A stretch of 64,000 bases of DNA. Origin: Blautia sp. Lineage in GTDB: Bacteria > Bacillota > Clostridia > Lachnospirales > Lachnospiraceae. Positions within the stretch are counted from its first letter, which is position 1; each line of letters begins with the position of its first letter. The position numbers and the translations under genes are program-made. The notes under the pieces were generated by a model that was given only the letters and a program-made list of their open reading frames with translations, ran no database searches and had not been told where the DNA came from. The stretch spans positions 1 to 64,000 of the forward strand of contig JAETNR010000014.1 of assembly GCA_021772055.1 (NCBI GenBank), read 5' to 3'. Below are positions 8,940 through 52,684 of this stretch, in pieces.

Positions 8940-10190
8940 CTATTCCCCGGCATTCCCGTAGATCTCACAAAGTCTTATGAGTATCTCCACGTTTTTTGCC
9001 ATGGATTGGATCGGCACATACTCAAAACGTCCATGTGCATTTTCATATCCTGCGGAAAGATTCGGGCAGGGGAGACCACGGAAAGACAAGGACGAACCGT
9101 CTGTTCCGCCGCGGAAAGGTTCTGTCTCAGGTGTGAGACCGCTTTCCCTGATCGCCTGTTTCAGATAATCGATCATGTACGGAACCTGTCTGATCACTTC
9201 ATTCAGATTGCGGTACTGCAGACGCAGATCAAGGTTGATATTCTCCGCTCCGTATTTTTCTTTCAGTCTTTCCCCACAGGAACGAACCAGTTCATTTCTG
9301 GCCTCGAACTTTTCTGCATCAAAATCGCGGATGATCAATTCCACACGGGCATATTCACAGCTTGATGTACAGTTCATGACGTGATAAAACCCTTCCGTTC
9401 CGGATGTATATTGAGGCTTTTCCAAAGGAGGCAGCATCTGCAGAAATTCGGACGCAATATCCACCGCATTCCTCATAACGCCTTTCGCCGTTGCTGTATG
9501 TACGCTCAAGCCTTTGATTTCCAGGATTGCCCCTGAAGCGTAAAAGGTCTGATCCATATAATAGCCCAAATGGTCACCGTCCAGCGTATAAGCAATGGGT
9601 GCTCCAAAACGTTCAAAATCCAATCCCCGGGCAAATCCGCCGGCTTCTTCATCCGGTGTAAATGCGATACTGATAACCCCATGGGGTACCCTAGGATGCT
9701 GTAAATAATATTCCATCATTGTCATGACCGAAGATATTCCGGCTTTATCATCCCCTCCCAAAAGCGTAGTTCCGTCTGTCAGAATCAAATCCTGTCCGAT
9801 ATAGTGCAAAAGGCCCGGAAAATCGGATGTTTTCATAACAATATTCTTTTCTTTATTCAAAAGAATATCGCTGCCATCATAGTTTTTCAAAATCCAGGGT
9901 TTTACATCCTTTCCGCTGGCATCCTCCGCAGTATCCAGATGCGTGATAAATCCAATCGCCTTGCCCTGTCCCTTTGGAAGATTAGACGGAAGAAGCCCGT
10001 AAGCAATAACGTTTTCCTCATCCAGATATACCTGCGGCACTCCCATCTTAAGCATCTCATCCGTCAAAACCCTTGCCAGATCCATCTGACAGGATGACGT
10101 TGGCCACACATCGCTGTTACGCCTGGATTGTGTGTTGATCTTTGCATAGCGGATCATACGTTCTTTTACCTGATCATAAAATTGCATCAT
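8940..10190 (-). CDS. pepT: Peptidase T (tripeptide aminopeptidase)
   Basis: A 416-residue M20-family metallopeptidase of the usual PepT length. The two-zinc site is visible as FITHLDTAEDASG (first metal His/Asp), LLGGDDKAG (bridging Asp), TPDEEAGG (catalytic Glu pair) and a late His in HVMNC or AHGRFEY. PepT removes the N-terminal residue of tripeptides in the cytoplasm. It is the last gene of the operon with the oligopeptide-type importer, and its start overlaps the stop of the glycosidase-like gene by 4 bases, so the two are coupled. Imported peptides, perhaps glycosylated, are the likely substrate source. Confidence 0.95.
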   Translation of the reverse strand: MMQFYDQVKERMIRYAKINTQSRRNSDVWPTSSCQMDLARVLTDEMLKMGVPQVYLDEENVIAYGLLPSNLPKGQGKAIGFITHLDTAEDASGKDVKPWILKNYDGSDILLNKEKNIVMKTSDFPGLLHYIGQDLILTDGTTLLGGDDKAGISSVMTMMEYYLQHPRVPHGVISIAFTPDEEAGGFARGLDFERFGAPIAYTLDGDHLGYYMDQTFYASGAILEIKGLSVHTATAKGVMRNAVDIASEFLQMLPPLEKPQYTSGTEGFYHVMNCTSSCEYARVELIIRDFDAEKFEARNELVRSCGERLKEKYGAENINLDLRLQYRNLNEVIRQVPYMIDYLKQAIRESGLTPETEPFRGGTDGSSLSFRGLPCPNLSAGYENAHGRFEYVPIQSMAKNVEILIRLCEIYGNAGE

Positions 10191-12325
10191 TCTTCTGACG
10201 CCTCCCTTTTGTCGTATCCAATCAGCCTGTACACCCGGTGAATCTCAAGAGGCGCAAGTTCCATACTATAGATTCCGTTATCGTCTCTGGTAAACGGGAT
10301 TTCTTTTTCCTCCGGGAAAACCTGGAATACTTTCTTCAGCAAAATTTCTTTTTCATCGATCTGAAGGATGCCGCCCGGAATAATCGGCGTGTCACCCCCG
10401 GTCAGTCTGGCAGAGGCGGACAGCTCATGCAGGATCCATTCCCTTTCCGCCCTGTTCTCACCCGGCAGGTTTCTCTCATAAAGAGTATATTCGATCATAT
10501 TTGGATACCGGGTCTCTATACAAACACCCGGCCTGAAAAGATGCTTCATCAGAGTGGAAAAAAATTCTTTTGTCCAGATAAAGTTTTCATTCATCAAAGA
10601 AAAGAAGTCAAAACAAAAGCTCAGTACCCGTCCTTCTCCAACAGCATGCTCTGTAATCGCCGGATATCCGGTTTCTTCTCCGGGCAGCGGGCTTCCCCAA
10701 TTGACCCATTCGGTATCGGACAGTTTCACGGCAGGATCCACAAAGCTGGCGTGAATCTGCATATTGGCCGGATCGGAGGTACAACAATTAAGCAGGGTTC
10801 CCTTCACAGGAGGTTCTGTCTTTGGAAGTTCTTCCCAGATTCCGGTAGTTTCCTGCTTAATATAGGCACTCCAGGGATTGCCCACATAATCCTCGTTCCT
10901 TCTTTCCAGTTTAAGCCCCATCAGATCTTCCAGCAGAAATTGTTCTCGCTCTCTTCCGTCAGCATCGGATAACCCGCTCTCACCTGAAATCAGCAAAACA
11001 CCGCCCTCCCGGATATACTGCAAAAGCTCTGCAGCCATTTCATCACTTAGGTAAGCTACGGAAGGGATAATAATTGCCTTAAATTCTTTCATCTTTTTGA
11101 GATTCAGTTCCAGCTCCGGTACCAGACACCAGGAAATTTTAGAATAATCGCACAGCTTCATTGCGCCAAGCAACGCTTCCCTGTGCTTTCCGCTGATCTT
11201 TGTACGGGAAACACTGCGGATGGGAATCGGTTTTGTCACTTTCAATGTATCGGAAATATCACTCTGGAGAATGCAGATGTCCGCATGTACTCTCCGGTTG
11301 CCCAGATATGGCTGGATTTTCTCAATTTCCTCATATGCTTTGCCAATTCTGCGTGCTTCTTCAAATTCAAGGCTCCCGTCTCTGCGCATAGATTCGCTGT
11401 ACATAAATACATGGCAATCCTGCGCTGCAATCTCAGCAGCAGCCAGACGATAAATGCTGCATGGCTGATAATTATAGATTTGAGATACAGTCCCAGGCCC
11501 CAGCTGCGGATGGCGCCCGCCGGAGGTATCTCTTGCATAAGCGCCGGAAAGCCAGTTTCCTGCCCAGGGTTCTGTGTACATATAATCCAGCTTGTCTCTT
11601 GTGCTCTTTCTGTAATGGGAGGAGAAATTCACCGTAATCGCCAGTGAGGGATCGATTGCTTTCAGTTCTGCCTTCACTTCATCCAGAAGCTCTTCCGAAT
11701 CATCGTCCAGAAACGCGGCCAGATCCTTGTTGTGGCGGATCATGTCTTCATCCTTTTCCGGTATCTCCATACCAAACCGTTCTCTGTAGCGTTTCTTACA
11801 GTTATCGCAGTAGCACAGCGATTTTCCGAAGATATCAATGAACAGAGAGTCCGGATGATATTCCCGCACCACTTCTTTGAGCTGTTCCAGTGCATATGTC
11901 CGGTAGTCACCGGACATACAGGGCATTCCCCATTTGGCATTGCTGGAGTTGTCCGGCATGCCGCAAACCATTTTCTTCCCGTCTTTTGTCAGAGAAGACC
12001 ATTCCGGGTGCACCTTGGGAATATAATTGTCATATTCAAAGCAATAATATGCTGTAAATTCAATGTTAAGTTTTTTTAGTACGGGGATTATCTCACGAAG
12101 CCAGTCCCTTTCTCCCAAAGCCGGATGTTTTTTCCCGACTTTTGTATTGTAATAGGAATTGCCCCAGTGATCTTTTGTATAAACCATGACATGATCCACG
12201 TTTGCTTCTATCAGAAAGCGTTCACATTCCTCCGCACTCAGCTTATCAAAATTTACGATCGGTGGATCAGGTGAATGGTGGTCACACAGATAGCCTCTAT
12301 ATGTATATTTGTATTTATCAGACAT
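10187..12325 (-). CDS. Glycoside-hydrolase-like protein (GHL6 / GH42-type)
   Basis: A 712-residue cytoplasmic protein with no signal peptide. Residues ~20-330 look like a TIM-barrel glycosidase of the hypothetical GHL6 group (HVMVYTKDHWGNSYYNT, YHPDSLFIDIFG, CYCDNCKKRY). Residues ~370-600 resemble the class-I-glutaminase-like trimerisation domain of GH42 enzymes (FKAIIIPSVAYLSDEMAAEL, YIREGGVLLISGESG). The reaction and sugar are unknown. It lies between the importer's binding protein and pepT. I chose the ATG at 12325, with GTGAG 7 bases upstream; a GTG at 12337 is also possible. Acting on sugars attached to imported peptides is an inference from the neighbourhood. Confidence 0.75.
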   Translation of the reverse strand: MSDKYKYTYRGYLCDHHSPDPPIVNFDKLSAEECERFLIEANVDHVMVYTKDHWGNSYYNTKVGKKHPALGERDWLREIIPVLKKLNIEFTAYYCFEYDNYIPKVHPEWSSLTKDGKKMVCGMPDNSSNAKWGMPCMSGDYRTYALEQLKEVVREYHPDSLFIDIFGKSLCYCDNCKKRYRERFGMEIPEKDEDMIRHNKDLAAFLDDDSEELLDEVKAELKAIDPSLAITVNFSSHYRKSTRDKLDYMYTEPWAGNWLSGAYARDTSGGRHPQLGPGTVSQIYNYQPCSIYRLAAAEIAAQDCHVFMYSESMRRDGSLEFEEARRIGKAYEEIEKIQPYLGNRRVHADICILQSDISDTLKVTKPIPIRSVSRTKISGKHREALLGAMKLCDYSKISWCLVPELELNLKKMKEFKAIIIPSVAYLSDEMAAELLQYIREGGVLLISGESGLSDADGREREQFLLEDLMGLKLERRNEDYVGNPWSAYIKQETTGIWEELPKTEPPVKGTLLNCCTSDPANMQIHASFVDPAVKLSDTEWVNWGSPLPGEETGYPAITEHAVGEGRVLSFCFDFFSLMNENFIWTKEFFSTLMKHLFRPGVCIETRYPNMIEYTLYERNLPGENRAEREWILHELSASARLTGGDTPIIPGGILQIDEKEILLKKVFQVFPEEKEIPFTRDDNGIYSMELAPLEIHRVYRLIGYDKREASEE

Positions 12326-38147: not shown

Positions 38148-40976
38148 TTATCTTCCTAATTTTTCACAGAAGGTTCCTTTTACGTCGCACCAGTTTTTGT
38201 CTGCATAGTCCAGAAGATATTCTGCCTGTTCCATGGACATTTCCGGGAACAGAAGGAATAAGCTGTGAGAACCATATTTCTTTACAATACGGTCTACATT
38301 TTTGATCCAGTCTTCAAACTCACCGGAATAAACCTTTACCCAGATGGATTTGCCTGCTGCGATTGCTTTGTCGTAGATCACATCCCAATCCGGAAGGGTT
38401 CCGTCCGGACCTGCATCGCCGCTTGTCCACTGAAGTGCATCAATTCCCTCAATTTCCATCAAAGCATCCATATGCTTAATGGCAGCCGGTCCGTCCAGAT
38501 GATAAAGGACATGGTCTGCTTTTTCAGACTGTGCACGCAGGGACGGCTGAATGTACTGCCGGAAATCCTCCGGTGACATCATGGCAGAGAAGTCACACTG
38601 AAGCTTCACGGTTTTTCCGGGTCCCCAGATCTGGAATACGGTGTAGGCATTTCCGCCATCCTCGTCCTTGATGATATCATAAAAACGATCATAGTATTCA
38701 TAGTACAGGTCTGTTACTTCCTGTATACGTTCCCCTACCATCTCGCCTTCATCCAGAAGGTCAAACAAAACATCCTGGGCTCCCCGAAGAGAAGCAAGCA
38801 CGTCAATGTTCTCCATCAGGTCAGGCATATCTACATAGAAGTCATTTCCTGCCAGCTCGCGGCAGTCTTTTGCAAGCTGAATATGTTTTTTGAACCATTT
38901 ATTCTCAGGGTCAAAAGTAAGCTTCGGTACGCCTTCCCATGTATCCAGACATTTATTGAACCAAACAGTATCTTCCTTAAATCCAATTTCTGAGCCAAGG
39001 TATGCTGCAAGGGATCCCGGTCCAAAGTCAATGTTCAGGTTCGGGAAGCTTTCCCCCAGGAAATAGTGGGTATCGCAGAAGTAACGGTAACGTTCTACGA
39101 TTCTCTCTGCATTCTGGTATTTGTCCTCCATGTCTGTCCATCTCAGTTCTTCAGGCAGATTGTAATATTTTCCCTGGCAGATCTGGTCAAGGTATCCGCC
39201 TTCTACAGGAGCTCCGTCAGAGTACTGTTCTACCTCCGGCTTTCTGGCAATTACGCACATCAGAGGACGTCCTGTATTCTCATGATTCCAGTAGTTTTTG
39301 AATTTTTCCTTTGTCCCTTCCCAGTCTGCTTTATAGCCTTCTCCAGGGCCTGGCAGATGAACGGATTTTACAGGGCCGTTTACTTTAAAGGTTTTCTTTT
39401 CCCCTTTTGCTTCCGATGCGGTTTCCGTTTTTGTTTCTTCCGAAACTGCTTCCTGGCATTTCGGCTTTTCCGGTTCATCAAACTCTCCTGCTGCAGCTCT
39501 GGCGCAAAAGCCGGACTGGGCATACTTTCTTGCCTGTTCTGCTGCAGATGCGGCATCCTCTGTATAGGAGTCTGCACCGATCTCGTCTGCAAATTCCTGG
39601 GAAATCGGAGCACCGCCCACCATGATTTTAATTCTTCTGCGGAACGGCTGTTTCAGAAGCGCTGCCACGGTATTCCTCAGAGACGGCATGGTGGTTGTCA
39701 AAAGAGCGGAAAGTCCCACGATCGTCGCTTCTTTATGCTCTTCAACGGTCTTGATAAAGGTTTCTATCGGAACGTCAACTCCAAGGTCAATAACGTTGAA
39801 TCCTGCGCTTTCAAACATCATGCCTACCAGGTTTTTCCCGATGTCATGAAGGTCTCCTGCTACAGTTCCAAGAATGATGGTTCCTGCGCTGCCTGCCTCT
39901 CCTGTTGCAAGACATGGTTTCAGCACCTCCACACCTGCCTTCATGGCACGTGCTGCTGCCAGCATCTGGGGTACAAAAATAATCTCTTTTTTGAAGTTCT
40001 CCCCAACAACAGCCATAGCAGCAATCATACCGTCGTTGAGGATTGCTGTCGGGTCGCATCCTGCATCAATGGCTTCCTGCACACATTTGCCGATTTCTTT
40101 GTTCTTTCCGTTCTGGGTAGCCTTGAATACGGCCTGCATCTTTTCGTCCACAGGACTTAATGGAGCAGTTTCTTCCCCTTGCGATTCGTCGGCTTTTTCT
40201 GTAAATGCATCAATATATTTCAGGCAGAATTCATCTCTTTCCAGAAGAGCATTGGTCGCGTAGATCATACCGATCATGTTTTTGTTGGTAGGATCTACAA
40301 TAGCACTGTCCATACCTGCGTTCATGGCCAGTACCATAAATGCCTGGTTCACATTTTTTCTTGCCGGAAGGCCGAAGGAAATGTTGGAAAGTCCGCTGGT
40401 AATGTGGATATCCGGATATTCTGCCTTGATCCTGCGGCAGCAGTCTGCAAATACGGTCAGTGCGCTCTGGTCTGTGGACAGGGTCACTACCAGGGGATCG
40501 ATATGTAATCTGCTTGGTGCAATATTGTATTCTTTCGCCTTTTCCATAATTCCGTGGAATACTTTCATACGGCGTTCAACAGAATCCGGAATTCCGTCAT
40601 TGTCGCAGAGAAGTGCCACACATTCCCAGTCCGTGTCTGCGATCACAGGGAAAATGGTATCAATTTTGTCTCCCTCCAGGGAAACGGAGTTGATAAGTCC
40701 CGGGCGTTTGCAGAACGGAATCGCTGCAACACAGGATCTCGCACTTGGGCTGTCTACACAAATCGGGGTATCCGTTACTTCCTGTACAAGATCGATCATC
40801 CATTTCAGGGTTTCGACTTCTGTATCCTCTTCTACAGATGCACATACATCCAAAAATGTAGCACCTGCTTCTGCCTGTTTTCTTGCTCTTTCTTTGATAA
40901 GCTCCGCATCCTTCCGGGCAATTGCCTGCGCTACTGACGGAATGGAACCATTCAGCTTCTCACCGATGATTATCAT
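38148..40976 (-). CDS. Three-domain corrinoid methyltransferase fusion (methyl-THF MT + B12 protein + URO-D-type MT)
   Basis: A 942-residue soluble fusion. Residues 1-260 match the pterin-binding methyl-tetrahydrofolate:corrinoid methyltransferases (FLDVCASVEEDTEVETLKWM, HITSGLSNISFGLPARKNVN, PTNKNMIGMIYATNAL). Residues ~275-490 are a corrinoid domain, with a helical cap and the base-off B12 motif D375-x-H377-x-x-G380 (GDLHDIGKN). Residues ~490-545 are an Ala/Glu/Lys linker. Residues ~550-942 belong to the URO-D-like methyltransferases. In this last domain the H-x-C zinc motif of MtaA-type enzymes is replaced by HLDG (826-829). The protein could demethylate a substrate onto cobalt and then hand the methyl to THF within one chain. 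RBS GGAGGA is perfect. The gene follows an AraC regulator on the same strand. Confidence 0.9.
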   Translation of the reverse strand: MIIIGEKLNGSIPSVAQAIARKDAELIKERARKQAEAGATFLDVCASVEEDTEVETLKWMIDLVQEVTDTPICVDSPSARSCVAAIPFCKRPGLINSVSLEGDKIDTIFPVIADTDWECVALLCDNDGIPDSVERRMKVFHGIMEKAKEYNIAPSRLHIDPLVVTLSTDQSALTVFADCCRRIKAEYPDIHITSGLSNISFGLPARKNVNQAFMVLAMNAGMDSAIVDPTNKNMIGMIYATNALLERDEFCLKYIDAFTEKADESQGEETAPLSPVDEKMQAVFKATQNGKNKEIGKCVQEAIDAGCDPTAILNDGMIAAMAVVGENFKKEIIFVPQMLAAARAMKAGVEVLKPCLATGEAGSAGTIILGTVAGDLHDIGKNLVGMMFESAGFNVIDLGVDVPIETFIKTVEEHKEATIVGLSALLTTTMPSLRNTVAALLKQPFRRRIKIMVGGAPISQEFADEIGADSYTEDAASAAEQARKYAQSGFCARAAAGEFDEPEKPKCQEAVSEETKTETASEAKGEKKTFKVNGPVKSVHLPGPGEGYKADWEGTKEKFKNYWNHENTGRPLMCVIARKPEVEQYSDGAPVEGGYLDQICQGKYYNLPEELRWTDMEDKYQNAERIVERYRYFCDTHYFLGESFPNLNIDFGPGSLAAYLGSEIGFKEDTVWFNKCLDTWEGVPKLTFDPENKWFKKHIQLAKDCRELAGNDFYVDMPDLMENIDVLASLRGAQDVLFDLLDEGEMVGERIQEVTDLYYEYYDRFYDIIKDEDGGNAYTVFQIWGPGKTVKLQCDFSAMMSPEDFRQYIQPSLRAQSEKADHVLYHLDGPAAIKHMDALMEIEGIDALQWTSGDAGPDGTLPDWDVIYDKAIAAGKSIWVKVYSGEFEDWIKNVDRIVKKYGSHSLFLLFPEMSMEQAEYLLDYADKNWCDVKGTFCEKLGR

Positions 40977-41139: not shown

Positions 41140-42123
41140 TTATAAATGCACCTGGGTTTCGTCATTATTCTTTAAGCGGAATACCCGGGGGGTCATGTGG
41201 TAGCGCTCTTTGAAAACACGATGAAAATAGCTGTTGTTCTCATATCCTACTGCGGCAATGATATCATTAATGGGCAGATTTGTATCGCACATCAGCTCTA
41301 CGGCCTTGCTCAGGCGTTTCCGCTGTAAAAGCTCCTTAAAATTAAAGCCTGTGGACTTTTTGATCATCTTGCTCAGCATGTGCATAGGAAGATGCAGCTT
41401 GTCGCAAAGTTCTGTAAGAGTGGCTGTTCTGTACTGCTGCTCTATGTAGTCCAGGGTCGTCATGGTGATCATATTTTCATACTGGTTCGGAAGACGCATT
41501 TCCACATACTGTACAGAGTCCAGAAGATAAAGGAAGATCAGTCCCATTGTAGTCTGGTTAATCCGGCTCTGATCCCCTTTCCCTGTGACAAGGGAATAGA
41601 TGATGTTCTCCAGAAGATTCTGAATCTGAAGAACCTCTGCCACCTTAAAATAGAGATATTCTCCCCGCTCTTCATCCTGGCGCAGCACATTTACCAGAAA
41701 ATCCGCAAGCACATTATTGCTTCCTGCCATGGAATACGCCACATCGAAAAATTCCGGCAGAACCATGAAATTAATGGCAATATCGTTTTCTCCTGCCGGA
41801 AGGATCTCATGGGTGGTAAACTGGTTCAGGAACAAAAGTTCCCCTTTTCCCACGGCCACCTGCTTCCCGTCTATGATATTCGTCAGCCGCCCCTCACAAA
41901 CATAGAGGACTTCAATAAAATTATGCCTGTGAGGAGGAAAATGCACAAACCTAGTATGGGTCCGCACTGCGATCAGCTTGCCTTCCTCCAGCATTTTCCT
42001 GCTGTCCACAGTAAAGTCCTTTCCGGAGGTGTATAGGTCTTTATCCACCTCCGCAACCCCATCCAGAATCTTCTGCTCCTCTTCTGAAATTTTCCTCAGC
42101 CGCTCCAGTAAATCCTGCTGCAT
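41140..42123 (-). CDS. AraC-family regulator with cupin sensor
   Basis: A 327-residue regulator: an N-terminal helical lead, a cupin-type sensor (about 60-140: FVHFPPHRHNFIEVLYVCEG, GKGELLFLNQFTTHEI) and a C-terminal AraC domain (TATLTELCDKLHLPMHMLSK, INDIIAAVGYENNSYFHRVF). Such proteins commonly activate sugar operons. The gene lies between the rhamnose importer and the corrinoid fusion, on the same strand as both, so either could be its target. The sugar is unproven. No start ambiguity: MQQDLLERL. Confidence 0.92.
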   Translation of the reverse strand: MQQDLLERLRKISEEEQKILDGVAEVDKDLYTSGKDFTVDSRKMLEEGKLIAVRTHTRFVHFPPHRHNFIEVLYVCEGRLTNIIDGKQVAVGKGELLFLNQFTTHEILPAGENDIAINFMVLPEFFDVAYSMAGSNNVLADFLVNVLRQDEERGEYLYFKVAEVLQIQNLLENIIYSLVTGKGDQSRINQTTMGLIFLYLLDSVQYVEMRLPNQYENMITMTTLDYIEQQYRTATLTELCDKLHLPMHMLSKMIKKSTGFNFKELLQRKRLSKAVELMCDTNLPINDIIAAVGYENNSYFHRVFKERYHMTPRVFRLKNNDETQVHL

Positions 42124-42886: not shown

Positions 42887-42974
42887 AAAAAAATGGCGGG
42901 TGTCTTACCCGCCGTTTGATGGACCCGGGTCTTTCGACCGGCCCAAATTTTTGGACGGGGCATACGCCCCGTCC
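42887..42974 (-). terminator. Three-hairpin 3' end of the rhamnose importer transcript
   Basis: After the stop at 43017 come three successive hairpins: GGACGGGGC/GCCCCGTCC (42953-42974), a GAAA-loop hairpin (GGCCGGTC/GACCCGGG type, 42921-42943), and the terminator proper GGCGGGT/ACCCGCC followed by T7 (42887-42913). One hairpin would be enough to terminate; the extra two may protect the 3' end or form a small RNA. Confidence 0.8.
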
Positions 42975-43016: not shown

Positions 43017-44039
43017 TTAGTACAGTTTTGCCATTTCTTCGATGTTATCGGAGTTGAACTGCAGAGGCAGGCCAAGAACGATTTCTGTACCGCCGTCATC
43101 AGCTGTTGTGATGGTGTAGTCGCCAAGGTCACCGGCTGTGAAGGTTTCATCCAGAGCACCTGTGATTTCTTCGTTAGCAAGTGCAATTGTTGCATATGCG
43201 CTGAGTTTTCCAAGGCCCTGCATATCCCACAGATAGAAGTATGGGCAGGAATGTGCATCGTCAGCACCTGTGTACTCGATCATTTCGGATGGAAGTCCAA
43301 GACCTGTCAGTTTGCAGGTGGATTCATTATCCTGAAGATATTTCGCTGCTGCTGCGATACCAACAGTGGTAGGAGCACAGATTACTTTCAGATCCGGATA
43401 GTTCTCAAGAAGAGCGGAGGTCTGGTCTGTGGATTTCTGCGGTTCGTCATCACCGTAAGCAACTTCTACCAGTTCCAGTTTGCTGTATTTCTCATCGCTT
43501 TCCATAATGGATTTCATAGCATCAATCCATGCGTTCTGGTTTGCTGCCTGAGAGGTAGCGGAAAGGATTGCCCACTGGCCTTCTCCGCCGGAGATATCCA
43601 GAACTGCATCCATAAGAGCCTGTCCTACAGCAACTGTACCAGCCTGGTTTACAAATACCTGACGGCTGTCAGAGTTCGGGGCAGAGTCAAAGGAAGCTAC
43701 TTTGATTCCTGCGTCCATAGCTTCTTCCAATTTTGCCTGAAGAGCGTTTACGTCGTTTGCAGAGATGCAGATTGCATCGTAGTCCTGAGAAATCAGGTTG
43801 TCAAGAACTTTGATCTGTGCATCAGCAGTAGCTGCTTCCGGGTAAACTACGTCAATTGTTCCGCCTTCTGCTTCAACCGTTTCTTTGTAGGAAGCTGCTG
43901 CGATCTCGAAGAATGCATTACCGGCAGATTTTCCAACCAGAGCGACTTTCTTTCCGTCTGCTACGCCAGCGAATACCGGGCAAGCTGCTCCAACGATCAT
44001 TGTTCCACAGAGAACTGCGCTAACTAATTTTTTGTTCAT
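43017..44039 (-). CDS. rhaS: Rhamnose ABC importer, substrate-binding protein (RhaS-like)
   Basis: A 340-residue pentose/hexose-type binding protein closely resembling rhamnose-binding RhaS by block order (LISQDYDAICISANDVNALQ, KVASFDSAPNSDSRQVFVNQ, AILSATSQAANQNAWIDAMK, CAPTTVGIAAAAKYL, TGLGLPSEM). The signal peptide is MNKKLVSAVLCGTMIVGAAC with cleavage near VFA/G; a clear lipobox is missing. It delivers sugar to the two permeases encoded directly upstream, and completes a four-gene RhaSPQT-type unit. This is recognition from memory of the family, not a search. Confidence 0.82.
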   Translation of the reverse strand: MNKKLVSAVLCGTMIVGAACPVFAGVADGKKVALVGKSAGNAFFEIAAASYKETVEAEGGTIDVVYPEAATADAQIKVLDNLISQDYDAICISANDVNALQAKLEEAMDAGIKVASFDSAPNSDSRQVFVNQAGTVAVGQALMDAVLDISGGEGQWAILSATSQAANQNAWIDAMKSIMESDEKYSKLELVEVAYGDDEPQKSTDQTSALLENYPDLKVICAPTTVGIAAAAKYLQDNESTCKLTGLGLPSEMIEYTGADDAHSCPYFYLWDMQGLGKLSAYATIALANEEITGALDETFTAGDLGDYTITTADDGGTEIVLGLPLQFNSDNIEEMAKLY

Positions 44040-44120
44040 GATTTTTCCTCCCTAGGATATAGTTTTTATTTTGCAACTGCCTTCCTGCACAGAAAGGCAG
44101 CTAACAACATGGTGAATAGA

Positions 44121-45119
44121 TTATTTTGTTACTGCTCTCTTAACCTGGCCGATGATGTTCGGCAGAGCAACTGCTCCAATCAGCAGGAGCCCCAGGATCA
44201 AAAGGATTACCTGTGCATGTACGTTTCTCTGGCCAAGACCTACCCGCAGGCATACAATGATAAATGCGGAAATAACGCCGCCTGCCAGGTTTCCTTTTCC
44301 ACCGGTGGATGAAATGCCGCCGAATACAGCCATAGCAATGGCATCCATTTCAAAACCGTTGCCGGTTGTGGTATTTGCACCGTAAGAAACAGACACGATA
44401 AACAAAGCACAAAGTCCGGAAACAGTTCCCATGACTGTGTAAATGATGAAACGAATCTTCTGTACATGAATTCCTGAATAGTATGCTGTCAGACGGTTCG
44501 TTCCGATTGCATAAACCCGGCGTCCGAAGGTGCTCTTTCCAAGAATCACTGCAAAAATCACTGCCAGAATCAGTACCAGGAACAGGATATACGGTACGCT
44601 TCCTACTTTTCCTGCAAGAAGACGGAAACCATCGGTATTGCTTGCGGAAATACTTCCGCCGCTTCCCAGTACGATCTCCGCAATGCCGCGGAAGATGATC
44701 TGTGTTGCCAATGTGACGATCATCGGAGGAAGCTCTTCAAATCTTGTAAGGATGAACCCATTTACTGCGCCGCAGAGTGTTCCTACCACCAATGCGGTAA
44801 TGACCACCAAAATAAACGAAGCACCTGTGTTACAGACAATACAGCTCATGGTTGCACAAAGGCAGACAATGGAGCCTACAGAGATATCGATCTCACCTAA
44901 AACCAGGATGTATGCCATGGGAAGCATAAGGAATACTTCTGCCAGGTAAACCGGCATCTGACGGAGCAGATTCTTCAGGTTATAAAACTCAGAAAACCAT
45001 GCGCAGAAAATATTTACTAAGATAAATACGATAACCAGAATGCCTTCCCAGCTGAAAAGCATTTTCTTTATCGGATTTTCCGGCACGTTGTTGATACTTC
45101 TTCCAGATTTTCCGGCCAT
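44121..45119 (-). CDS. rhaQ: Rhamnose ABC importer, permease (RhaQ-like)
   Basis: A 332-residue RbsC-type permease with eight or more hydrophobic segments and the family motif GEIDISVGSIVCL near residue 80, plus the late loop AVFGGISSTGGKGNLAGGV. It is one of two non-identical permeases in the unit, as in rhamnose importers rather than ribose importers. Two bases separate it from the sister permease gene. P/Q assignment is arbitrary. Confidence 0.85.
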   Translation of the reverse strand: MAGKSGRSINNVPENPIKKMLFSWEGILVIVFILVNIFCAWFSEFYNLKNLLRQMPVYLAEVFLMLPMAYILVLGEIDISVGSIVCLCATMSCIVCNTGASFILVVITALVVGTLCGAVNGFILTRFEELPPMIVTLATQIIFRGIAEIVLGSGGSISASNTDGFRLLAGKVGSVPYILFLVLILAVIFAVILGKSTFGRRVYAIGTNRLTAYYSGIHVQKIRFIIYTVMGTVSGLCALFIVSVSYGANTTTGNGFEMDAIAMAVFGGISSTGGKGNLAGGVISAFIIVCLRVGLGQRNVHAQVILLILGLLLIGAVALPNIIGQVKRAVTK

Positions 45120-45121
45120 GA

Positions 45122-46114
45122 TTACATCTCCCTTCCTTTTAATGCACTTCTGTCAGCAACCCGCTGAAGAACAACGTTGGCTACAACAACCACAAGGATC
45201 AAAACACCTTTGATCGTATTCTGGGCTAATGGATCAATGCCTACCAGTGGAAGCGCCTTAGCAATCGTAGCCAGGATCAGGGAACCAAGCAGTGCGCCAA
45301 GTACAGTACCTCTTCCGCCGCTCATGCTGACACCGCCGATTACGCAAGCTGCAATAACATCCATTTCACCGCCCTGCTGCATATCCGGCATGGCTGATGC
45401 ATAAACAGAAACCTGAAGTGCACCGCCAAGACCGGCGAGGAATCCCATGATCATATATACAAGCAATTTAATATTTTTCACATTAATACCGGAAACTTCT
45501 GCTGCATTGGCATTACTTCCTACTGCGTAGATTTTCCGTCCTGTTCTTGTCCACTTCATAAAGAAGAAGAAAATCACATAACAGAGGATAATCACCCAGA
45601 TTACATAGCTTATTCCGAGAATTTTCGTTGTTGCAAAATTTTTGAAGCTTCCCAGTGCAGCAGCACTTGCCCACTCACCACCATTGGAAATCAGATAACC
45701 CATGGCGCGGAACACGTACATAAAGCCCATGGTTGCAATGATGGGAGGCACATCTGCTCTTGAAATAACAAGTCCTACTACCAGACCGCATGCAGTACCG
45801 ATGGCAAGGGCGATGATGAATGCCACTGCCGTATTGGAAATATGTCCATATTTCAGCAGCATACCGATCGACATACCGGAAAGAGCCAGGGTAGACATGA
45901 TAGAAATATCAATGCCCCCTACCAGCATCACGCACAGCATACCAAGGGACATTACCATGGTGACTGCATTGTTTTTCAACATATCCATGATAGACTTCGC
46001 TGTAAGGAAGGACGGGCTGATCGCGGAAACAACTGCAAACAGAAGAATCAGGATCACTGCAAGCAGCGCCTCACGGGAGCCTGTAATTTTTTTCACGATT
46101 GATTTCTTTTCCAT
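45122..46114 (-). CDS. rhaP: Rhamnose ABC importer, permease (RhaP-like)
   Basis: A 330-residue RbsC-type permease with the GGIDISIMSTLAL motif and the loop CVIGGVSMSGGRGTVLGAL. It follows the ATPase gene with a one-base stop/start overlap (TAATG) and precedes its sister permease by 2 bases, so the two permeases are made together. Two permeases, one ATPase and one RhaS-like protein make this a complete rhamnose-type importer. P/Q assignment is arbitrary. Confidence 0.85.
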   Translation of the reverse strand: MEKKSIVKKITGSREALLAVILILLFAVVSAISPSFLTAKSIMDMLKNNAVTMVMSLGMLCVMLVGGIDISIMSTLALSGMSIGMLLKYGHISNTAVAFIIALAIGTACGLVVGLVISRADVPPIIATMGFMYVFRAMGYLISNGGEWASAAALGSFKNFATTKILGISYVIWVIILCYVIFFFFMKWTRTGRKIYAVGSNANAAEVSGINVKNIKLLVYMIMGFLAGLGGALQVSVYASAMPDMQQGGEMDVIAACVIGGVSMSGGRGTVLGALLGSLILATIAKALPLVGIDPLAQNTIKGVLILVVVVANVVLQRVADRSALKGREM

Positions 46115-47628
46115 TATTTAGCGGCCTCCTTTCCTGTTGTCTGTCCTTTTTCCATCGCAAGCTCCAGGATCCGCTCCTGTGTTGCTTCTTCTTTGGACAG
46201 TTCACCGGTCTTACGGCCGTTGCACATAACAATGATTCGATCGCTCATACCTAAGATTTCCGGCATTTCGGAGGAAATCAGGATAATTGCATAACCCTTC
46301 AGTGCAAGCTCACCCATGATGGCATAGATTTCCGCCTTTGCACCTACGTCAACACCCTTGGTAGGCTCATCCATGATAACCACCTTCATTTCCTGGCTCA
46401 ACGCCTTGGCAACAACCACCTTCTGCTGGTTACCGCCGGAAAGAGAACTTGCAGGCTGGAAAATATCTACTGCCTTGGTATCTACATCTTCCAGAAGCTT
46501 CTTGGACAGCTCACGCTCTTCCTTGTCGCCGCAGATGCCGTTCTTTGCATATTTGCTGATGGTTGGAAGGGTTACATTTCTTCCTAAGCCCCAGCTCATG
46601 ATCAAACCTTCTTTCTGACGGTCTTCCGGAAGAAGGATGATTCCTTTTTCCATTGCATCGGAGGGTTTCTTCACATATACTTCTTTGCCTTCCAGATAGA
46701 CTTTTCCTTCATCAGCTCTGGTAATACCGCAGACACTCTCCACCACTTCCGTACGTCCTGCGCCTACCAGACCGGTCAAACCTACGATCTCACCGGCATG
46801 CACATTAAAGGAAACATTCTTATAATAACCGACTCTGGAAAGTCCTTCGATTCTCAGCATTTCTTTGCCGATCTTTACTTCCGGCTTCGGGAACAGATCC
46901 TTGATCTCACGGCCTACCATGGCTTTAATAAGGTCTGCATTGGTGATTCCGTCTACATCATAGGTTCCGATGTACTGTGAATCACGGAATACGGTAACAC
47001 GGCTTGCCAGGCGGTACATATCTTCAAAGCGATGGGAAATAAAGATAATGGATACGCCTTCTTCTTTCAGCTTGTCAACAATGCGGTATAATTCCTCAGA
47101 CTCACTTCTTGTAAGACATGCAGTAGGCTCATCCAGGATGATGATCTTTGCATTGGTGGAAAGTGCTTTTGCAATTTCTACCATCTGCTGCTGGGCAACA
47201 CTTAAGGTTCCCATTTCTGCAGTCGCATCAAAATCCGCATTCAATTCTTTCAGAAGCTTATTTGCCTCACTGTTCATTGCCTTCCACTGGATCATGTGGT
47301 TCTTAACGATCTCGTGACCCATAAAAATATTTTCCGCTACAGTCAGATGCGGATAAGATGTGGGATGCTGGTAAACGGCTGCAATCCCTGCCGCCTGCGC
47401 ATCCTTCGGGCCTTTGAAGTCAACCTTCTGTCCATTTAAAAACATCTCGCCTTCTTCAGCTTTATGTACACCGGTGATTACCTTGATAAAGGTAGATTTG
47501 CCGGCACCGTTTTCCCCCATCAGCGCATGTACTTCACCGGGTTTCAACTGAAAATGTACATTATTCAGCGCCTTTACGCCCGGGAAAATCTTGGTAATGC
47601 CTTTTAACTCAAGAACATATTCAGACAC
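46114..47628 (-). CDS. rhaT: Rhamnose ABC importer, double ATPase (RhaT/RbsA-like)
   Basis: A 504-residue ATPase with two fused nucleotide domains. The first has Walker A GENGAGKS, signature LSVAQQQ and Walker B IIILDEPTACLT; the second has a degenerate Walker A (GLVGAGRT), LSGGNQQK and VVIMDEPTKGVD. This is the RbsA/XylG pattern, in which only the first site is fully active. It is the first gene of the four-gene importer; the terminator at 47761-47808 lies upstream. The cargo is taken from the RhaS-like partner. Confidence 0.9.
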   Translation of the reverse strand: MSEYVLELKGITKIFPGVKALNNVHFQLKPGEVHALMGENGAGKSTFIKVITGVHKAEEGEMFLNGQKVDFKGPKDAQAAGIAAVYQHPTSYPHLTVAENIFMGHEIVKNHMIQWKAMNSEANKLLKELNADFDATAEMGTLSVAQQQMVEIAKALSTNAKIIILDEPTACLTRSESEELYRIVDKLKEEGVSIIFISHRFEDMYRLASRVTVFRDSQYIGTYDVDGITNADLIKAMVGREIKDLFPKPEVKIGKEMLRIEGLSRVGYYKNVSFNVHAGEIVGLTGLVGAGRTEVVESVCGITRADEGKVYLEGKEVYVKKPSDAMEKGIILLPEDRQKEGLIMSWGLGRNVTLPTISKYAKNGICGDKEERELSKKLLEDVDTKAVDIFQPASSLSGGNQQKVVVAKALSQEMKVVIMDEPTKGVDVGAKAEIYAIMGELALKGYAIILISSEMPEILGMSDRIIVMCNGRKTGELSKEEATQERILELAMEKGQTTGKEAAK

Positions 47629-51442: not shown

Positions 51443-52684
51443 TTATAATTTTGCATCTGCAACAGCCTTGTACATGGCCACGATGTTTTCCGCCGGAACA
51501 TCAGGCATAATATTGTGTTCTTGATTAAATACAAATCCGCCATCCTTCATAAAGATATCAATCATTCTTCTGGTATAATCGTATACCTCCTGCGCAGTAG
51601 AGCGATTCAAAACCGTTCTTGTATTGCATCCGCCGCCCCAGAAGGTGATATCCTTTCCAAATTCCCGTTTCAGGATTTCCGGATCCATCTGCCTTGCTGT
51701 TGTCTGGATCGGATTCAAAATATCATACCCTGCATCAATCAGATCCGGAATGATGGGATAGATAGAACCGCAGGAATGAAGGAAGGTTTTCATATTGCTG
51801 TGAGTATGTACATATTCATTCAGCTTTGTATGGTGCTTTTTAAAGTGCTCCTGGTATTTTTCCCTGGACATAAACATTCCGCTGTCCATACCAAGATCAT
51901 CTCCGAAGCGAAGGATATCCACGATATCGCCCACGGATTCGCACACATTCTTCAATGTTTCCAGATGACGTTCCATCAGCTGCTCAATCAGTGTATCCAC
52001 TTCCTCAGGCTCTGAATAGATATCCATCAAAAAGTTATCAATTCGCCTTAAAAAAGTTCCCCATTCAAACAGGTTGCAGCCGCAGGTAATCACCAATGCC
52101 CGGTCTGTGGATTCCCTAAGCTTTAAGGTTTTTGTGCGAAGCTCCTTCCAAAAATCCTTGTCTCCTGCATGATCCCACGGGCTGTGTACCAATGCATTCC
52201 AGAGGACTTTTCCCATTGCATGATCCAGATCTTTATAATTATCCGGATATTCCTCCAGATAAGGAAAGCAGGTCTGGTCAAAAAAGGTGGCCCCTACCGG
52301 CATTCTGGCAATCTGCGTTCCTTCTTTATCAAATACCAGATAATCACCGTTGGGTTGTTTCTTCGGCTGGAACCAAAGGGGATACTGTCCTGTAGTTCCG
52401 TCTGCAAGGGTGGTATCATACCAGTCAGAATCCTCTGTATTAAATACCCTGCCGATATCAATGGTATCTACTCCAAAACGATCCATAATCTCGATTTCCG
52501 GATAGACCACCTGCTGCACCACATCAAAAATTCTGGTATGTCCTGTTTCTAGTCCAAGATGTTTTTTTAATCGGTTATAGGCGATGGCGGAAATTCCTGA
52601 GCTTGGGGTTGCTCCCAGATCCAGCGGGACTCTGTCCGGCTGCTTATGATTCACAGACGCCATCACTCGCTCTCTCGATGTCAT
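51443..52684 (-). CDS. URO-D-type corrinoid methyltransferase
   Basis: A 413-residue member of the uroporphyrinogen-decarboxylase superfamily. It lacks true URO-D catalytic features but keeps a likely zinc site: H303-x-C305 (LHSCGS) and C353 (WGGGCNTR), spaced as in MtaA-type methyltransferases. Such proteins move methyl groups between a substrate and a corrinoid protein; the O-demethylases of acetogens include members of this family. It carries no corrinoid domain, so a partner such as the 942-residue fusion is needed. Its place between rhamnose mutarotase and a sugar importer suggests an O-methyl sugar as substrate, which is an inference. GGAGGA is seven bases from the ATG. Confidence 0.85.
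   Translation of the reverse strand: MTSRERVMASVNHKQPDRVPLDLGATPSSGISAIAYNRLKKHLGLETGHTRIFDVVQQVVYPEIEIMDRFGVDTIDIGRVFNTEDSDWYDTTLADGTTGQYPLWFQPKKQPNGDYLVFDKEGTQIARMPVGATFFDQTCFPYLEEYPDNYKDLDHAMGKVLWNALVHSPWDHAGDKDFWKELRTKTLKLRESTDRALVITCGCNLFEWGTFLRRIDNFLMDIYSEPEEVDTLIEQLMERHLETLKNVCESVGDIVDILRFGDDLGMDSGMFMSREKYQEHFKKHHTKLNEYVHTHSNMKTFLHSCGSIYPIIPDLIDAGYDILNPIQTTARQMDPEILKREFGKDITFWGGGCNTRTVLNRSTAQEVYDYTRRMIDIFMKDGGFVFNQEHNIMPDVPAENIVAMYKAVADAKL

Follow-up and report, generated by a model that had tools for sequence, protein, structure and literature searches.

The O-demethylases of acetogenic bacteria comprise methyltransferase I (MTI), a corrinoid protein (CP), methyltransferase II (MTII) and an activating enzyme (PMC12915777; this and the other papers named below are cited from parts of their text), and MtvB, OdmB and VdmB have been assigned to the uroporphyrinogen decarboxylase (URO-D) superfamily (PMC13222342). 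In the known enzymes, the CP meets its two methyltransferases by diffusion. Here we describe a gene of Blautia sp. (GCA_021772055.1) whose 942-residue product ties all three together; it lies in the 64,000-nucleotide stretch of contig JAETNR010000014.1 that we analysed (positions 1 to 64,000, hereafter the window). Like the acetogen O-demethylases, this system has corrinoid and pterin-binding components, a part that resembles the URO-D superfamily by fold, and a putative separate activator. Unlike theirs, which are separate proteins, the first three stand in one chain, and the URO-D-fold part lies beyond the Pfam and NCBIfam models. We think it probable that the protein acts as a corrinoid demethylase in a single chain, arranged as methyl-tetrahydrofolate (methyl-THF):CP methyltransferase (MeTr), CP and URO-D fold, and that it transfers methyl groups to THF, with sugar-linked compounds as their probable source.

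Domain order and fold of the fusion protein

The open reading frame (ORF; 38148..40976, minus strand) starts with ATG, and a strong Shine-Dalgarno sequence, AAGGAGG, lies directly 5' of it. Along the chain follow MeTr (PRK07535, residues 1-264), B12-binding_2 (283-353), B12-binding (366-478) and a C-terminal part. The MeTr part scores 350.8 bits against NCBIfam NF005719 (residues 1-264; cut-off 259), and its best-scoring solved relative is PDB 4o0q (1.7e-96), deposited as a dihydropteroate synthase and presumably a Desulfitobacterium protein; for the CP part it is the cobalamin-binding protein 1y80 (4.9e-55). We aligned 21 fusions, namely that of the window and 20 of the 25 others described below. 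D75, N96, D160 and N198 of the MeTr domain, which we take to be catalytic positions from work on AcsE, show no variation among them, and D375, H377, D378, I379 and G380 of the CP domain are likewise unvarying. An earlier note made from the sequence alone had proposed methyl-THF, B12 and URO-D-type components in this order within 942 residues, with the motif D375-x-H377-x-x-G380. The ORF, its domain matches and the fold described next bear out the order, and the residues at 375-380 read D-L-H-D-I-G.

The C-terminal part could not be placed with plain profiles: residues 536-942 match no Pfam or NCBIfam family even when E values as high as 10 are allowed, and a profile built from 69 sequences (residues 546-942 and relatives) matches no sequence in the PDB. 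An AlphaFold2 model of this part is confident (predicted local distance difference test, pLDDT, 93.2; predicted template modelling score, pTM, 0.91), and its top Foldseek matches are MtaA (4ay8 and 4ay7; E 2e-8 and 4e-8), followed by URO-D enzymes. Seventeen PDB folds match with E <0.001 (two MtaA, 14 URO-D enzymes and one cobalamin-independent methionine synthase), the first 16 with moderate TM-scores of 0.50-0.67. When the C-terminal family is compared by hhalign with eight PF01208-type proteins, seven from the rest of the genome and one from the window, it aligns over 165 columns with probability 96 and E 1.8e-9. The proposed domain assignment therefore stands by profile search for the MeTr and CP parts; for the URO-D part it fails with plain profiles and is recovered by fold and profile-profile comparison. 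Because of the empty Pfam result, we call the domain URO-D-fold and not a member of PF01208. For a domain outside these models, its fusion to MeTr and CP is a strong hint to function.

In the hhalign pairing, H826 stands opposite the H of H-S-C-G and D828 opposite its C. No H-x-C occurs in the whole chain, which leaves the zinc-ligand pattern of the MtaA/MetE thiol methyltransferases unmatched, and HLDG is unvarying in all 69 rows of the C-terminal-family alignment. The loss of H-x-C and its replacement by HLDG at 826-829 are thus as the earlier note had them, whereas its idea that HLDG may signal new chemistry is not supported. Among ten loci taken from the 17 PF01208 matches in the same genome, three have H-x-D-G, four H-x-C-G and two neither, and one has no ORF, so the swap from H-x-C to H-x-D is not peculiar to the fusion. 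Zinc-free relatives are also published: CdmB has a structure and assays without zinc, and a Moorella O-demethylase is likewise reported zinc-free, while veratrole and vanillate O-demethylases of other origin contain zinc (PMC13222342). Given these paralogues and published relatives, the HLDG point is weak. Metal use by the C-terminal domain is something we infer here, and a different metal site built with Cys794, which is unvarying in the family alignment, is possible. The pattern E-X14-E-X20-H, presumably the known zinc motif of some methyltransferases I, was considered and dropped: E803 and E818 fit E-X14-E, yet glutamate is found there in only 16 and 20 of the 69 rows. An open-access literature search on a zinc-binding motif gave no paper.

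Spread of the fusion and its partner genes

A pattern scan of contigs from 84,980 species returned 98 relatives of the C-terminal domain, the best 80 of which were kept as named loci. The homology search suggested for the same domain order succeeded: 25 of these 80 loci hold a three-part ORF, and the other 55 hold the C-terminal part alone. Cultured isolates carrying the fusion are Blautia sp. MSJ-19, B. schinkii DSM 10518 and MSK.6.26, B. caecimuris DSM 29492 and Robinsoniella peoriensis. Because the three-part ORF recurs in this way, isolates included, we can rule out an assembly chimera or a chance ORF. Two fused loci are irregular, one reaching its contig end (L076) and one having two overlapping frames at its start (L079).

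Selection was compared over nine relatives, the three more distant of which were mostly saturated. In comparisons with the six closer ones (L055, L057, L058, L059, L061 and L066), the ratio of nonsynonymous to synonymous substitution rates (dN/dS) lies at 0.02-0.06 for each of the three domains; the linkers, wherever dS is unsaturated, reach about 0.15-0.20. The linker at residues 485-547 is 11-71% identical to nine relatives, compared with 71-96% for the three domains, and pLDDT stays <50 across residues 500-537 of the full-chain model. These values point to strong purifying selection in all three domains and to fast linkers.

Leaving out 12 near-copy or cut-off loci, nine of them fused, we built a tree of 71 rows from 68 of the 80 loci, the window and two paralogues from the window's genome; 17 rows are fused and 54 alone. 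At minimum it requires two changes between the fused and alone states, by a quick method and with forks near the fused rows partly unresolved, so repeated independent fusions are not needed. One change falls on Blautia MAG23 (L069), which has the C-terminal domain alone (9827-11194) within the Blautia group; since its N-terminus is linker-like, this is probably a later split. Relatives of the C-terminal domain are spread through the Lachnospiraceae and beyond. In a sample of the phylum, the family or distant relatives occur in 28 of 398 genomes, and among the matches listed there is no fusion-sized frame outside the genome of the window. The simplest history would be that a MeTr-CP gene pair was joined to a stand-alone URO-D-fold gene; one such pair (genome G133, L137) encodes a MeTr with 82% and a CP with 70% identity to the corresponding parts of the fusion.

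In a 250-genome family sample, 19 genomes match the domain (15 closely, four only distantly or partially; two are fused). A stand-alone CP is present in 19/19 of them and in 27/231 others (46/250 in total; Fisher p 2.8e-16), and a strong activator homologue in 19/19 and 96/231 (115/250; p 1.6e-7); 149 of the 250 have an activator homologue at any score. Thresholds were E 1e-52 and a frame <600 aa for CP and a best E <1e-40 for the activator, totals were counted by hand, and both p values are too small because the genomes are related. Some activator homologues lie close by. In one relative (L060), an activator homologue, a DUF2284 gene and the fusion follow one another on one strand, and that activator meets the Pfam RACo models while falling below the NCBIfam AcsV and RamA cut-offs. 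In another, the activator homologue adjoins the fusion divergently (L059), and in a third it lies about 5 kb downstream (L070). A stand-alone family gene is followed by CP and an activator homologue in L109. Twelve stand-alone CP loci were fetched (L135-L146; CP position in L138 and L140 from the genome-wide CP search), and in eight of them (L135-L142) a MeTr gene lies directly upstream of CP on the same strand, as in the fusion.

In the genome of the window, a RACo-type PF14574 activator scoring over cut-off adjoins a CP gene on contig C69, and contig C133 holds an ACS-type MeTr, an activator homologue and genes that we read by eye as carbon monoxide dehydrogenase/acetyl-CoA synthase (CODH/ACS). 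The C69 activator would serve the fusion protein. The acetogen-type components found here are thus a MeTr over cut-off, a CP with D-x-H-x-x-G and an activator in the genome. With activator and CP genes elsewhere in the genome and an activator homologue beside the fusion in some relatives, the claimed kinship to the separate O-demethylase proteins is supported. Against 17 PF01208 matches, the CP search of this genome gave two, the fusion and C69, and ten of the 20 fusion genomes searched have no additional MeTr apart from at most an ACS-type one. The fused MeTr-CP may therefore work for other URO-D-type methyltransferases of the cell as well.

Three side observations concern these genes. Five PF01208 matches fall within about 16 kb at C183:94268-110711 of the same genome. 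At L145 (2749-4113 and 6581-9798), CP and an activator homologue have as neighbours a PocR-type regulator and, named by eye, a 454-aa URO-D-like gene and two CobW-like genes; MeTr is absent, and the locus looks like a different arrangement of the same machinery. A 409-aa protein with no Pfam or NCBIfam match at E 0.001 is encoded beside a C-terminal-domain paralogue in the genome of the window (L003, 2559-3788, plus strand); a relative (42%) occurs in L133, near its family member.

Gene neighbourhood, direction and substrate

Two sugar-type ATP-binding cassette (ABC) importers lie 5' of the fusion on the same strand, and the farther one is preceded by a URO-D gene (Table 1) that looks like a further substrate methyltransferase linked to sugar import. 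The binding protein of the nearer importer scores 279 bits against RhaS TIGR02637, under the cut-off of 342. This importer is kept in L055-L058 and partly in L061, only close relatives, and the AraC regulator is kept in the same loci (L055-L058, L061). In L066, the fusion is directly preceded by a xylulokinase-type kinase gene (over cut-off), together with a weakly isomerase-like one (below cut-off). Genes for glycoside hydrolases (GH106, GH95, GH42), a nucleoside hydrolase and a rhamnosidase-like protein (below cut-off) lie near single stand-alone members. The partners change between loci yet stay saccharolytic. Of the 80 loci, 29 have a GH31 gene, and in 12 it lies no more than 121 bp away on the same strand; sugar permease homologues accompany 15/25 fused and 24/55 stand-alone members (39/80 overall). 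As raw counts, these are only suggestive of a sugar context. Between the sugar-binding protein and AraC genes we also noted a DUF3800-XI RNA motif (42898-42945, minus strand; RF02975, 62.6 bits), and in L101-L104 stand-alone family members have CP and a methanol methyltransferase gene of the MtaB family in their vicinity (by Pfam in L104 only).

Table 1. Coordinates of the fusion's parts and of nearby genes in the window
Feature	Position	Strand	Basis or remark
MeTr domain, methyl-THF:corrinoid protein methyltransferase type, residues 1-260	40197..40976	-	NCBIfam NF005719; Pfam Pterin_bind
CP domain, residues 283-478 (helical cap 283-353, B12-binding 366-478)	39543..40130	-	PF02607 and PF02310 over cut-off
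D-L-H-D-I-G, lower-ligand histidine motif, residues 375-380	39837..39854	-	read in translation
Variable linker, residues 485-547	39336..39524	-	low identity between relatives; low pLDDT
C-terminal URO-D-fold domain, predicted substrate methyltransferase, residues 548-942	38151..39335	-	AlphaFold2, Foldseek, hhalign
HLDG, residues 826-829, at H-x-C position of MtaA-type enzymes	38490..38501	-	hhalign alignment
AraC-type regulator upstream of fusion	41140..42123	-	PF12833, PF02311
Sugar-type ABC importer (binding protein, two permeases, ATPase) upstream	43017..47628	-	Peripla_BP_4; permeases and ATPase named from translations
Second URO-D gene (PF01208, H-S-C-G)	51443-52684	-	29 bp upstream of sugar-type permease gene

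The mechanism that we propose begins with a separate ATP-driven activator, which would reduce the bound corrinoid to Co(I). A methylated substrate entering by the adjacent sugar-type importer would be bound by the URO-D-fold domain, which would pass the methyl group to Co(I). Flexible linkers would then let the tethered corrinoid domain move over to the MeTr domain, and transfer of the methyl group to THF would feed the Wood-Ljungdahl pathway. We are fairly confident of corrinoid-dependent methyl transfer in the direction from substrate to THF. The neighbourhood favours sugar-linked compounds as the substrate, at which the earlier note had guessed, and an O-methylated or otherwise methylated sugar-like compound is a real possibility, held with somewhat less than even confidence.

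Several results weigh against a sugar-fed, THF-linked demethylase. By tblastn the window holds no activator, as the earlier note had said, and no second CP or second MeTr; the activator-CP pair is the one on C69. An Rfam search of the window, L059, L060 and L066 found no cobalamin riboswitch that reached the gathering score. Four of the 12 stand-alone CP loci (L143-L146), including C69 itself (L144), have no MeTr beside CP, and the flanks of stand-alone C-terminal genes hold CP in 5/55 and MeTr in 3/55. MeTr of the fusion type was found in seven of 12 stand-alone genomes checked, and only a MetH-sized frame in five. THF is therefore not the acceptor in all members of the family; those five must use either another methyl acceptor or MetH. 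The full-chain model is also poor (pLDDT 67.6, pTM 0.46) and uninformative on docking.

The main rival is a part in methionine synthesis: MeTr-CP would be charged from methyl-THF, a separate homocysteine methyltransferase would take the methyl group, as in split MetH/MtgCD, and the URO-D-fold domain would be an accessory input. The methionine route in fusion genomes is indeed not obvious. The genome of the window has no MetE match and one stand-alone homocysteine methyltransferase (291 aa), and a search of 20 fusion genomes (those of 19 of the 25 fused loci and that of the window) turned up no MetH-sized frame apart from the fusion itself. There is also a published precedent for a core used in methionine synthesis as well as in betaine demethylation (PMC12478193). 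Yet the same kind of homocysteine methyltransferase is found in 7/8 tested fusion genomes; of the 22/250 genomes in which no CP domain matched at E 1e-25, eight were tested, and 7/8 have it too. Relatives thus get by in the absence of the fusion. Ten of the 20 fusion genomes also have further MeTr genes, and the neighbourhood is one of sugar uptake. We therefore consider a mainly methionine-synthesizing role unlikely.

Methyl transfer is reversible in principle, and MtaA is the closest solved fold, so the chain could run in a biosynthetic direction, from methyl-THF through the corrinoid to the URO-D-fold domain, which would methylate a thiol or other acceptor as MtaA does coenzyme M. This seems very unlikely to us: where the thiol-activating site would have its H-x-C half, the family alignment shows H-x-D without exception, and the nearby importers and glycoside hydrolases point to catabolism. 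Aromatics often arrive as glycosides, and the sugar genes could be explained in this way if the substrate were an ordinary methoxylated aromatic, as for the known acetogen O-demethylases. Corrinoid-dependent O-demethylation by Blautia is published (PMC12915777, PMC9602652). However, the C-terminal family is too far from the PF01208 enzymes for any Pfam match, and the kinase and weak isomerase match before the L066 fusion also speak against an aromatic, which we regard as improbable.

For the demethylase reading, it is tempting to go further, though only tentatively. Gut acetogens may import O-methylated sugars and strip the methyl groups for acetate synthesis with a B12 machine that is a natural three-in-one demethylase. 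The C-terminal family would then be an unnamed, expanded group of sugar-directed methyltransferases whose stand-alone members act in many relatives as spokes round a MeTr-CP-activator hub; Blautia and its kin would have fused one such spoke to this hub, and the hub may go on serving the other URO-D-type enzymes of the cell. The sugar substrate is the interesting part of the finding: if correct, it brings methylated carbohydrates within the range of anaerobic cobalamin-dependent demethylation.

Comparison with described corrinoid systems

By title and the start of the abstract, we found no natural MeTr-CP-URO-D fusion described in the open-access literature among the matches listed; subscription literature lies mostly outside this search, and a prior description is possible. 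MetH shares the order of MeTr followed by cap and B12 domains, and TIGR02082 aligns with residues 2-531 at 240.7 bits, far under its cut-off of 1010.85. The fusion differs from MetH in having, by Pfam and NCBIfam, no homocysteine or S-adenosylmethionine reactivation domains, and in carrying the URO-D fold after the B12 domain. By analogy, it may work like a MetH core in which a demethylating module replaces the homocysteine chemistry. Judging by their title, the fused corrinoid/methyl transfer proteins of Methanosarcina are another natural methyltransferase-corrinoid fusion, reportedly of two parts. CmuA, too, is a natural fusion of this kind, of MTI and CP, but its chain has no MeTr, MTII being the separate CmuB (PMC13222342).

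CdmBCA of Acetobacterium dehalogenans, which acts on chloromethane, resembles our system in having a URO-D-fold MTI, a CP and an MTII, and the zinc-free working cited above is that of CdmBCA; its components are separate proteins with haloalkane substrates (PMC13222342). In marine bacteria, MtgC and MtgD provide a CP and MeTr core common to several substrate methyltransferases whose genes lie in one genome, but they are separate proteins, with substrate enzymes of the pfam06253 type and glycine betaine as substrate (PMC12478193). The engineered MT-L5-CP likewise links a methyltransferase to a CP and is active; it differs in being artificial and in having two parts, both taken from Desulfitobacterium hafniense (PMC9930637). 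An artificial two-part fusion is thus already practical, and because the Blautia protein ties all three parts together, a single chain allows the study of shuttling, linker length and cofactor loading.

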